Source: an uncultured Desulfobacterium sp. (GTDB lineage: Bacteria > Desulfobacterota > DSM-4660 > Desulfatiglandales > Desulfatiglandaceae). Taken from it: a stretch of 55,603 bases of DNA. How positions within the stretch are numbered: the stretch's first letter is position 1; every line of letters starts with the position of its first letter. The translations under genes and the position numbers were made by a program. The notes under the pieces are model-generated. The model saw only the letters and a program-made list of their open reading frames with translations, searched no databases and was not told where the DNA came from. The stretch is from assembly GCA_900258555.1 (NCBI GenBank), contig LT984855.1, positions 750,533 to 806,135 of the forward strand. Reading direction: 5' to 3'. This document shows, piece by piece, positions 38,863 to 43,061 of the stretch.

Positions 38863-39447
38863 ATGAATAGCCTAAAAGACCTTATAAAGGATGGTCCTGT
38901 ACATCAACGCAGGTTGGAGTTCAGCACATATGCCCTGACAGACGACCGTATTATTGTAGAAGGCCTACTCAAGGATGACCGGTTCGTCCCAAGGTACCAT
39001 TTGGACGGGAATGTCAGCCCTCCGGGGAAGGTGCACAGAATCTGCGTGCGCCTGCTCATGGGCGGCTGGCCCCTTTCAATCCTTGACGCCGAGGCCCAGA
39101 TGGAGGTAGTCCCTCATGAACAATGTCCCTCGACCGAGGAAACGGTAAAAAAAGTTGTTGGGCTCACTATCACGCATGGTTATGGCGATAAGGTGATTGA
39201 ACGCATTGGCGGAGTAAAGGGTTGCGCCCATATGGTTCAATTGATTATAGCGATGGGAAATGCAAGTCTGCATGGATACTGGTCTCACAGGTTGAGAAAA
39301 CACAGCCCCTTGCCGGGCTCGTTAAAAGAAATTCCTGAACTGGACTATGTAATTGGAAGTTGTCTGCTCTGGAACGAGGGAGGGCCGTTGATTCAAAAAA
39401 TTCAGACGGCCCTGGACCAGCAAAACCTAAAACCGGAAACGGAATAG
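38863..39447 (+). CDS. DUF2889 domain protein
   Basis: 194 aa matching the DUF2889 pattern: an early HQRRLEF segment, IIVEGLLKDDRFVPRYHLDG, the PGKVHRICVRLLM strand, a CPSTEETVKKVVGLTI block and the conserved GGVKGCAHMVQLIIAMG. Function is unknown. It is transcribed away from the flavoprotein gene and stands alone before the TPR lipoprotein gene. Confidence 0.82.
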   Translation: MNSLKDLIKDGPVHQRRLEFSTYALTDDRIIVEGLLKDDRFVPRYHLDGNVSPPGKVHRICVRLLMGGWPLSILDAEAQMEVVPHEQCPSTEETVKKVVGLTITHGYGDKVIERIGGVKGCAHMVQLIIAMGNASLHGYWSHRLRKHSPLPGSLKEIPELDYVIGSCLLWNEGGPLIQKIQTALDQQNLKPETE

Positions 39448-39539: not shown

Positions 39540-41873
39540 ATGAGGCGTTTTCATTTGCTTTATTGCCGTACATTGTTCCCGATGCTCTTGTTGCTTTTTT
39601 GTCTATCCTGCACAAGCAGCCCCTCAGAGGAATGTGCAAGGTTCATGAAGAGGGGAGATGTTTATTTCAGCAGGAAGGAGTTCGGCAGGGCCATACTTGA
39701 ATATAAAAAGGCCATAGGTACAGGGGAAATTGTTGCACAGGCCCATTATCGGCTCGCCCTGTCCTACCTGAGCACTGCCCAAACCAGGCAGGCCCTTCTT
39801 GAGCTTGAAAAGACAATAGAAATTGATCCCCAAAACCTGGATGCCCAAATAAAGACAGGTCAGTTTCATCTTGCGGCGAATAAGACCGAACTGGCGGCGG
39901 CCAAGGCCGCGCTGGTCCTGGAAAAGTCACCGGAAAACATTGAAGCGCTGTTCCTGAATATGGGGGTCCTGCTTCAGCAGGGAAACACAAAAGAGGCCAT
40001 TGAGACCCTCAAGCGAATAACCACCCTGGACCCCAAAAACACCAGGGCCTTTGTCTTGCTTGGCCGCATTGCAGAAATGCGGAAAAATCCTGACGAGGCA
40101 AGGCAAAATTTTAAAAGGGCGATTGAGGCAAGCCCCGATAATCCGGCATTATACCTTGAACTCGCCCGTTTTTATGAACAGAGGGGTGACTTTGAAGAAG
40201 CGGAAAAGGCCCTAAAAGATGCAATATTAAAAGTCCCGGAAGACGCAACCCTGATCCTTAGCCTCGGAAACTACTATGTCCGTCGTGGCAACCCAGAGGC
40301 TGCCGAAGATCTCTTTTTAAAGACCGTTCAAAAGGCCCCGAAACAGGTCGGTCCGATTGTGACACTGGCCGTCTATTATGCCTCCCAGAAAAACTGGCCG
40401 AATGCAATCAAGTGGATGCAACAGGCCATTGATCTCCAGCCTGAAAATCTTGAGATCCAAAATGCCATGGCATCATTTTATTTGGCTCAAGGCGAAACGC
40501 AAAAGGCCCGAACGCTCATAGATCATATCCTTGAAAAGGATAAGACCAATATTCAGACCAGATTTTTGAAAGCCCGCATGCTCTTTGAAAAAAAGGATAT
40601 GTCAGGCGCCAAGGAAATCTTACAAGCCATTGCAAACGAGCAGCAGAACCACTCCGGGGTCTACTACCATCTTGGCCTTATATATTTGGCTGAAAAAAGT
40701 GAGAAAGAAGCAAAGGCTGTACTTCTTAAGGCTGTCGGATACGACCCCGACAACATCAACGCACATATGCTCCTCTCGCAGATATTTCTTAACGAAGGCC
40801 AAGCGGACATGGCGATTGAACAACTGGGAATAGTTCTTGCGATGCAACCGGAACACTACCAGGCTTATATGCTTGCGGCAAAGGCCTATCTATTGAAAAA
40901 CGATCCGAATAGGGCAAGGCAGGCCCTGTTAAATGCGGCAAAAATTCGACCTGATGACCCCGCCGCATACCTTCAGCTGGCAAATATCGAGCTACGGGAA
41001 GGCAAATATGAAAGCGCAATGTCCTATGTGGACAAGGCCCTTTCTCTGAGGGCGGATTATGTTGCAGCCTTGGACGCAAAGGTCTCGGTCTATCTGGCCC
41101 GAAAAGAGCCTGAAAAAGCCCTGACTTTTCTTGATGAACAGATCGGCAAGAATGACGCAAACCAGGTACTTAAGGCCGCCTTATACGAAATGGAAGGGAG
41201 GGTATTTGAATCTACAAAGAGCTACAAGCAGAGCGAGATCAGCTACAAAAAGGCACTGGAATTAAACCCTGATATGGTCGGGCCTTATTTGTCCCTGGCA
41301 GGGATATACATAGAAACAGGCAAAGGCGAGGAGGCGATTGTCCAATATAACGAGATCCTGGAAAAACAGCCCGGCTTCATACAGGCCTATCTTGCCCTGG
41401 CCGCCCTGTACGAGGCCAAGGGAAAAGTGGAAAAGGCAAAGAACATGTGTGAAAAGGCCCTGGCCATTAACCCTGATTTTGCACCCGCCGCCAACAACCT
41501 TGCATGGATCATGCTCCAACAGGGACAAGATCCGGAAAAGGCGCTTACTCTGGCGAAAAAGGCAAAATCTCTCCTGCCGGATGATCCCCGTATTATTGAC
41601 ACTCTGGGACTGGCCCTGATCACAAACCGCCTTTATCCAGACGCAGTATCTGAGCTTAAGACCGGTGTGGATAAGGCCCCTAATAATCCGACAATCCTAT
41701 ACCATCTTGGGCTTGCCCATTGGAAAAACGGGGAGAAGGATCAGGCTGTGGATGCACTGAATCAGGCCCTTAGGACCAAAGATCCATTTGCCGAGAGGCA
41801 GTCTGCCAAAAACCTGCTCGATGAAATCAGAGAAACAACAGGTAATGCGCCTGAGATGTCTTCCGGAGAATAA
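39540..41873 (+). CDS. tetratricopeptide-repeat lipoprotein
   Basis: 777 aa. An N-terminal signal with a lipobox (LLFCLSC, Cys about residue 24) predicts a lipid-anchored envelope protein. The rest is nearly continuous TPR (roughly twenty 34-residue units), recognisable by repeats such as ALLELEKTIEIDPQNLDA and YKKALELNPDMVGPYLSLAG. The overall plan resembles TPR proteins of exopolysaccharide/PEP-CTERM systems (PrsT-like), but no such neighbours are present. It lies three bases ahead of the next gene, so they are probably a unit and the TPR superhelix may be a scaffold for it. ATG is preceded by GAGG. Confidence 0.88.
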   Translation: MRRFHLLYCRTLFPMLLLLFCLSCTSSPSEECARFMKRGDVYFSRKEFGRAILEYKKAIGTGEIVAQAHYRLALSYLSTAQTRQALLELEKTIEIDPQNLDAQIKTGQFHLAANKTELAAAKAALVLEKSPENIEALFLNMGVLLQQGNTKEAIETLKRITTLDPKNTRAFVLLGRIAEMRKNPDEARQNFKRAIEASPDNPALYLELARFYEQRGDFEEAEKALKDAILKVPEDATLILSLGNYYVRRGNPEAAEDLFLKTVQKAPKQVGPIVTLAVYYASQKNWPNAIKWMQQAIDLQPENLEIQNAMASFYLAQGETQKARTLIDHILEKDKTNIQTRFLKARMLFEKKDMSGAKEILQAIANEQQNHSGVYYHLGLIYLAEKSEKEAKAVLLKAVGYDPDNINAHMLLSQIFLNEGQADMAIEQLGIVLAMQPEHYQAYMLAAKAYLLKNDPNRARQALLNAAKIRPDDPAAYLQLANIELREGKYESAMSYVDKALSLRADYVAALDAKVSVYLARKEPEKALTFLDEQIGKNDANQVLKAALYEMEGRVFESTKSYKQSEISYKKALELNPDMVGPYLSLAGIYIETGKGEEAIVQYNEILEKQPGFIQAYLALAALYEAKGKVEKAKNMCEKALAINPDFAPAANNLAWIMLQQGQDPEKALTLAKKAKSLLPDDPRIIDTLGLALITNRLYPDAVSELKTGVDKAPNNPTILYHLGLAHWKNGEKDQAVDALNQALRTKDPFAERQSAKNLLDEIRETTGNAPEMSSGE

Positions 41874-41876
41874 CAC

Positions 41877-43061
41877 TTGAGACGACTTCCATTTCACATA
41901 CTGCTGGCATGCATCTTTTTGCCGCCTATCCTGTATATGTTGTCGCTACAGGCCCTTGAGATATTGGTTCAAAAGAAATGGAAGGCTGAATTACAAGGTC
42001 TCTTGGTGACGGACGGCAGGGCCCTTCTGGAGGGCCGCATCGGCATAGAGGATGAGATCAACCGCAATGTGGAAAAATATATTGCCTCGCGCACAATACT
42101 CAAATGGGGAGTGCTGGCCCAGATCACAGTAAAGACCGGGACGGGCAAGTGGCTTTATCCGGCCTCGGCAAAACAGATGTTATATACATTTAACCCTGAG
42201 AATTATCCACAGGAAAGGCCCTCTCCCGCTCCAACAGAGACCATGAGCATCGCGGAGAACAACCTAAGGGTAATGGATGAGGGGATTGAGCTGTTTTTGT
42301 CTGTACAGATCCCGAGAAACACCTGGATAGCAAACAGCCTTTTGTTTGTATATCTGGCCATATTTACATCCATTCTTTACAACGCCTACCAAAAAAGCTC
42401 AAGAGAGGGTAAGAGACTGGAGAAAAAAAATATCGAGGCACTGGAATCCGCCAACAAAAATCTGTTGGGTGCCCAGGATAGACTCCGTGACGTCACAGCA
42501 AGAGAGACAAGTTACCTGCAGGAGATAGAAAGACTGAAAAAAGATCTCAGCACGGTCAGCGACAGGGTGCGTGAGACAGAGGACGAGGCCCTGGAGCAGA
42601 TGGATCAACTGGAAAAGAGCCTCCGTGAGAGTGTCGGATTAAAGGAGGAGCTGGAGCTTGAGGTCAATCGCCTGTCGAGTGAAATGGAAAAGATTGAGGC
42701 GCAACAGAAGACCCCGATAAAAAAGCAACGCAAGCAGATTGAGACAACGATAAAGAGGTTTAAGACCCTTTACAAAAATCTTGAAATCCAGGAGCGGGCT
42801 GTGGAGGGATTTCTAGATCTTGAAGGCGAATTACAACTCAAGGCAGAGGAACTGATACATAACATGAACGAAGACAGCACCAGGCTCTCTGTAAAAAGAA
42901 AGATTTTTTCGAAAAAAGGTTCAACACCTACTTTCGAATGCGAGTTCGGTTACAGGGGCCGTATATATTTCAGGCCCGGCCCTGGTGCAAGGGTACAGGT
43001 CCTCACAATAGGTACAAAAAATACCCAGACAAAAGATCTGGCATATATAGAAGGAGTATGA
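41877..43061 (+). CDS. two-TM coiled-coil protein with RelE-like C-terminal region
   Basis: 394 aa. Hydrophobic segments at about residues 8-27 and 144-165 flank a ~115-residue extracytoplasmic part. Residues ~170-300 are a long cytoplasmic coiled coil rich in Glu, Leu and Lys. The last ~90 residues (YRGRIYFRPGPGARVQVLTI followed by GTKNTQTKDLAYIE) look like the RelE/ParE toxin fold core, with its R-I-Y-F-R strand and the I-G-x-K-x-x-Q turn. The start is TTG, eight bases after GGAG. No antitoxin gene is adjacent. Function unknown; membrane-tethered RNA- or ribosome-binding domain is one idea. Confidence 0.8.
   Translation: MRRLPFHILLACIFLPPILYMLSLQALEILVQKKWKAELQGLLVTDGRALLEGRIGIEDEINRNVEKYIASRTILKWGVLAQITVKTGTGKWLYPASAKQMLYTFNPENYPQERPSPAPTETMSIAENNLRVMDEGIELFLSVQIPRNTWIANSLLFVYLAIFTSILYNAYQKSSREGKRLEKKNIEALESANKNLLGAQDRLRDVTARETSYLQEIERLKKDLSTVSDRVRETEDEALEQMDQLEKSLRESVGLKEELELEVNRLSSEMEKIEAQQKTPIKKQRKQIETTIKRFKTLYKNLEIQERAVEGFLDLEGELQLKAEELIHNMNEDSTRLSVKRKIFSKKGSTPTFECEFGYRGRIYFRPGPGARVQVLTIGTKNTQTKDLAYIEGV

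Follow-up and report, generated by a model that had tools for sequence, protein, structure and literature searches.

Background

RelE-family toxins that bind the ribosome use a positive patch, and in the toxin HigB the substitution R68A abolishes toxicity, R77A or K95A inhibits it and Q98A has a mild effect (PMC9098466). In RelE the counterparts of R77, K95 and R68 are R61, R81 and K54, the first two of them essential (PMC12620021). RelE toxins are normally small free proteins, as had been remarked in a sequence-only reading of the DNA analysed here, and toxins of the TIGR02683/COG3657 type (HI1419-upstream type) are free proteins of ~100 amino acids. The generalisation has a solved exception in Cami1, a CARF-RelE CRISPR effector (PDB 8phb/8phj) in which a sensor protein ends in a RelE domain. 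In this soluble effector cA4 is sensed by the CARF domain, and we found no description in the literature of a RelE domain fused to transmembrane (TM) helices. A second described system that resembles the locus is the Prs system of PEP-CTERM/exosortase bacteria (PrsT, PrsK, PrsR), in which PrsT is paired with a kinase, a sigma-54 regulator and EPS genes (PMC1569441); floc formation in Aquincola needs prsT (PMC9850573). No RelE-like component of a Prs system is described in the literature examined.

The gene studied here lies in a 55,603-nucleotide stretch of DNA (the window) from an uncultured Desulfobacterium sp. Like Cami1 its product ends in a RelE-like domain, which is here joined to a putative periplasmic sensor, two TM helices and a coiled coil (Table 1).

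Architecture of the membrane-anchored protein

The gene occupies exactly the coordinates given in the earlier reading, 41877-43061. Orthologs share its start at an M-x-x-[LF]-[PS]-[FY] position, which supports the TTG as initiation codon. This TTG follows the TAA of the TPR lipoprotein gene after three bases, exactly the gap given in the earlier reading. Kyte-Doolittle hydropathy of the 394-residue protein has 19-residue maxima of 2.08 at residue 6 and 1.76 at residue 149, bearing out the two hydrophobic segments noticed previously, and residues 171-185 after TM2 contain six K/R against two D/E. Given this basic side and the basic N-terminus, the coiled coil and the C-terminus would be cytoplasmic and residues 29-148 periplasmic under the positive-inside rule, the latter likely forming the putative sensor. 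In the full-length model a helix of residues 150-278 with one short break and a second helix of residues 281-298 lead into a compact domain; the coiled coil, put at ~130 residues from the sequence, is ~125 residues long in the model. With 29 orthologs the observation exceeds what chance would give. Across them the C-terminal domain varies least: 24 of its 102 alignment columns are invariant, compared with 8 of 120 for the periplasmic domain and 4 of 121 for the coiled coil. When the full-length sequence was scanned with Pfam and NCBIfam, coiled-coil noise was all that came back. PADLOC matches to LmuB, JetC, ZorA and DruC were likewise of coiled-coil type, and a link to defence was rejected.

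Table 1 Features of the locus and of related loci (window coordinates unless a locus prefix is given)
Feature	Position	Strand	Basis
TPR-repeat lipoprotein, 777 aa, signal peptide with lipobox (..LFCLSC), TPR over most of its length	39540..41873	+	Pfam TPR_19 E 6e-76; NCBIfam TIGR02917 PrsT
GGAG, likely ribosome-binding site of the gene with the TTG start, within the last bases of the TPR gene	41865..41868	+	sequence
Whole gene, TM1-periplasmic domain-TM2-coiled coil-RelE-like domain	41877..43061	+	394 aa, TTG start
TM1, residues ~6-28, predicted cytoplasmic N-terminus MRR	41892..41960	+	hydropathy; helix 6-42 in model
Predicted periplasmic domain, residues ~29-148, mixed helix/strand	41961..42320	+	between the two hydrophobic segments; modelled secondary structure
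TM2, residues ~149-171, then basic stretch on the predicted cytoplasmic side	42321..42389	+	hydropathy
Predicted cytoplasmic coiled coil, residues ~172-298	42390..42770	+	full-length model; weak coiled-coil type Pfam/NCBIfam matches only
RelE-superfamily-fold domain, residues 299-394	42771..43058	+	AF2, Foldseek, VIA-align, hhalign, TIGR02683 matches
Invariant Arg341-Lys342, strand before core sheet; tentative counterpart of RelE R45/HigB K58	42897..42902	+	alignment
RIYFR strand (362-366); Arg362 (aligned with RelE R61/HigB R77) and Tyr364 invariant	42960..42974	+	hhalign register
IGTKNTQTKD (IGTKNTQ = 378-384); Lys381 (RelE R81/HigB K95), Gln384 (HigB Q98) and Asp387 invariant	43008..43037	+	hhalign register
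ExeA-like ATPase-OmpA fusions	L072:4615-6126, L075:7869-9764, L077:7211-8773		3′ of orthologs outside the order

Predicted fold and sequence relatives of the C-terminal domain

AF2 prediction of residues 289-394 with 22 aligned sequences gave a model of mean pLDDT 90.0 and pTM 0.83, with its elements in the order strand-helix-helix-strand-strand-strand-strand-helix. The beta-alpha-alpha-beta-beta-beta-alpha arrangement of the RelE fold was found in the model and by both Foldseek and VIA-align. The top nineteen Foldseek matches in the PDB were RelE, YoeB, YafQ, HigB or related toxins, the Cami1 RelE domain among them, and the leading toxin matches mostly had probabilities of 0.97-1.00; almost all of the nearest solved structures are RelE/YoeB/HigB/ParE toxins. 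VIA-align over ~80 residues gave Z scores of 9-10 for RelJK, YoeB and RelE1, with a maximum of 10.0 over 80 residues (3oei, RelJK), and 9.3 for the Cami1 RelE domain. The matches listed for the protein were taken up by the RelE domain, and none among them fell on the periplasmic domain. The toxin fold proposed earlier for the C-terminus was therefore upheld, the predicted fold being related to that of RelE and not an unrelated one.

Sequence relatives were found among the TIGR02683-type toxins, which share the core sheet and fold with the domain and are the best that we identified. Eighteen of the 22 members of the domain alignment match TIGR02683 with E-values down to 4e-4, and four weakly match Gp49. 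The window domain itself scores 12.9 bits with TIGR02683 against a curated cut-off of 62.85, which leaves it outside the family as curated, and the C-terminal domain stays below the cut-off of every Pfam and NCBIfam model. Searched over 394 genomes of the phylum, the domain profile retrieved several small RelE/ParE toxins that score below true orthologs. Alignment of the domain with TIGR02683-type toxins from the same genomes (hhalign) gave a probability of 92% (E 6e-7) over a span of only ~45 columns. With two profile-found (circular) members removed and a broader orthologue alignment the values were 95% and 5e-8, while column-shuffled controls all stayed below 2%. Homology was not detected with Gp49/HigB sequences from the same genomes (0.1%) or with the single E. 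coli RelE sequence (<2%), and PDB sequence searches with the whole protein or the domain profile as query returned nothing real. Since the Gp49 and E. coli RelE matches are non-significant, placement in the RelE/ParE superfamily rests on the fold and on homology to the TIGR02683-type toxins above random controls. We regard the RelE fold and this superfamily placement as near certain.

Conservation of toxin active-site residues

The RIYFR and IGTKNTQ motifs, which had been taken as characteristic of RelE/ParE-fold proteins, are present in the sequence and fall on the motif positions of the toxins. In the hhalign register Arg362 of RIYF falls on the Arg in the YRxYY strand of the toxins. Lys381, Gln384 and Asp387 of GTKNTQxxD meet their GGxKxxQxxDI; the motif common to both groups can be written E-x(7-9)-R-[IV]-Y ... 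G-[TDG]-K-x-x-Q-x-x-D-[IL]. Eight residues are invariant in the 29 orthologs (R341, K342, E354, R362, Y364, K381, Q384 and D387), among them the Arg and Lys aligned with catalytic residues of the toxins, whose conservation the sequence-only reading had wished to see checked. The place of RelE K54/HigB R68, position 356, is occupied by D, E, I, V, N, L, Q, A or once H but never by Lys or Arg, and the TIGR02683-type toxins have a basic residue two places after the motif Glu that the window family lacks. Of the residues expected in a RelE-type mRNA interferase, the orthologs therefore have the R61/R77 and R81/K95 counterparts and lack the basic K54/R68 counterpart. Compared with M. tuberculosis HigB1/TAC toxin and E. 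coli RelE the fold is the same and the counterparts of R77/K95/Q98 and R61/R81 are invariant, whereas the K99 counterpart is not conserved and the protein is membrane-anchored and without an antitoxin. The domain has a net charge of about zero (15 K/R, 14 D/E). With one part of the active site kept and another lost, RNA binding by the C-terminal domain appears plausible and full catalytic competence doubtful; the invariant residues may be structural in role.

Gene neighbourhood and comparison with Prs systems

The TPR lipoprotein had been proposed as an envelope-side partner and is presumed here to be a periplasmic or outer-membrane one. Its gene lies directly upstream on the same strand in 22 of the 26 distinct genomes whose sequence extends far enough, so that the pair is conserved; at L029 one small ORF lies between the two genes. 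In the window a DUF2889 protein gene is found just 5′ of the lipoprotein gene (38863-39447, +). The next gene 3′ of the RelE-like gene begins 205 bases on and encodes a CoA-transferase, and no antitoxin-like ORF flanks 41877-43061, in agreement with the earlier observation that no antitoxin gene is adjacent; none was seen beside any inspected ortholog either.

The earlier reading had missed a conserved context of regulatory, ATPase or pilus genes beside the pair. A single-domain CheY-like receiver lies downstream in 16 of 18 members of the order, the exceptions being the window's own genome and G074. In 12 of the 18 a gene for an FHA-GAF-PAS hybrid histidine kinase accompanies the receiver and in many a sigma-54 activator is found; the window's genome has no full-length match to the FHA-kinase, only partial ones of 28-39% identity. 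In other families (G458, G174, G240) an ExeA-like AAA ATPase with a C-terminal OmpA peptidoglycan-binding domain is encoded directly downstream. In G443, of a distant lineage (L078/L079, G443:C10), the ortholog is the first in a run of pilus/secretin genes comprising a PilB/GspE-like ATPase, PilM/N/O-like genes (by position and topology) and a secretin.

These neighbours recall the Prs systems and TIGR03015, in that kinase, sigma-54 regulator or ExeA-like ATPase genes occur beside the pair in relatives and the TPR lipoprotein passes the TIGR02917 (PrsT) cut-off (335 bits against 312.2), a match that is weak evidence of orthology as TPR models cross-match widely. The relatives' neighbouring regulator falls below the PrsR cut-off (302.8 against 502.6 bits) and their ATPase below that of TIGR03015 (254.8 against 324.5). 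Exosortase genes are commoner in genomes of the order with an ortholog (13 of 23) than in the others (7 of 62; Fisher p 4e-5, not corrected for relatedness). The ten ortholog genomes without exosortase include several drafts and the single-contig genomes G007 and G013, which have the pair. We take the cluster to be Prs-like rather than a Prs system, because the regulator and ATPase are below the Prs cut-offs and two single-contig genomes lack exosortase. Three strong exosortase (EpsH) genes are present in the window's genome at a distance from the window (G000:C1:1165256-1166008, C1:1171978-1172727 and C3:584603-585367).

Proposed function and alternative explanations

We propose, with about an even chance of being right, that this RelE/ParE superfamily protein, domesticated and tethered to the membrane, serves as a transmembrane signal transducer with a probably RNA- or ribosome-binding cytoplasmic end and is not the toxin of a toxin-antitoxin module. 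The outer-membrane TPR lipoprotein, an envelope signal or both would act on the periplasmic domain, and TM2 and the coiled coil would carry the conformational change on to the RelE-like domain. This domain would most likely bind RNA (mRNA, rRNA or the ribosome) near the membrane, with cleavage weak, conditional or absent. The receiver, hybrid kinase and sigma-54 activator encoded beside the gene in relatives may belong to the same signalling module. The earlier suggestion of an RNA-binding sensor rather than a toxin is one that we also infer; an RNA ligand is favoured because two basic active-site residues are invariant. The non-basic K54/R68 place and the near-zero charge of the domain speak against RNA, and the lack of receiver and kinase genes at the window locus counts against the module.

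The non-basic place and the near-zero charge also speak for a pure protein scaffold, in which the RelE fold docks the receiver, the kinase or the ExeA-like ATPase conserved beside the gene and contact with RNA has been lost. Docking alone leaves unexplained why the Arg, Lys and Gln of the toxin active site are invariant across divergent lineages, and we consider a scaffold rather unlikely. The same residues could be those of an active tethered ribonuclease, a membrane-bound counterpart of Cami1 that cuts mRNA or rRNA once an envelope signal lifts inhibition by the coiled coil or a partner. R362 and K381 match HigB/RelE residues needed for activity, Q384 matches HigB Q98, and Cami1 is a precedent for RelE as the C-terminal output in a sensor fusion. 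The basic residue whose loss in HigB R68A abolishes toxicity is however never present, and with no dedicated antitoxin gene the activity would need self-inhibition; we consider such an enzyme unlikely.

An ordinary RelE/ParE toxin with an unusual N-terminal extension would fit the homology to TIGR02683 toxins. A type II toxin-antitoxin module has an adjacent antitoxin gene and a small free toxin, and neither was found at the orthologs inspected: full-length orthologs have two TM segments and a coiled coil, they occupy a conserved envelope/signalling operon and share one long architecture with one copy per genome, and no relative was detected in phage and plasmid collections at E 0.01. We regard this explanation as very improbable. 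A resemblance of fold without common ancestry with RelE toxins, for which the short hhalign match and the failure of Gp49 and E. coli RelE alone to match could be cited, is scarcely credible given that the sequence motif, the order of the fold and the register of the active site all agree and that TIGR02683 matches and VIA-align Z scores point the same way.

If the proposed transducer is real, a toxin fold has been recruited to serve as output in a membrane signalling protein, opening a possible direct line from the envelope to RNA or the ribosome that bypasses transcription. More tentatively, and somewhat short of an even chance, such proteins may constitute a class of transmembrane receptor with an RNA-acting RelE-superfamily output, through which envelope signals, relayed together with the TPR lipoprotein and a two-component phosphorelay, would influence translation or RNA at the membrane and in which the protein's own regulation would replace the antitoxin. 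Neither Pfam, NCBIfam nor PADLOC contains a dedicated model for the family, which recurs across the phylum in a conserved gene cluster.

Distribution and decayed copies

Orthologs were identified in 23 of 85 genomes of the order, remnants being left out of the count. Seven genomes outside the order, among the 394 of the phylum sample (≥90% complete), also carry orthologs, all of the same architecture, and occurrence across the phylum is sporadic. In the tree the window protein groups with L029, L030 and L054 from other families or classes, with support of 100/99 for the four-row set, apart from the main clade of the order. This topology, with the absence of receiver and kinase genes downstream, suggests that the window copy of the TPR/RelE-like pair was acquired horizontally or represents a separate lineage. 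L025 and L026 look like unrelated coiled-coil proteins of murein-peptidase type and were excluded from the orthologs.

A number of copies are disrupted. In the remnants L024 (also L057, L063) of G012 and L027 of G056 an internal deletion joins the N-terminal membrane segment to the region of the RIYF strand, the tail of the G012 remnant being in another frame; both are decayed copies or assembly errors. In L022/L028 (G015:C231) a frameshift around residues 342-345 splits the ortholog at the start of the RelE-like core.
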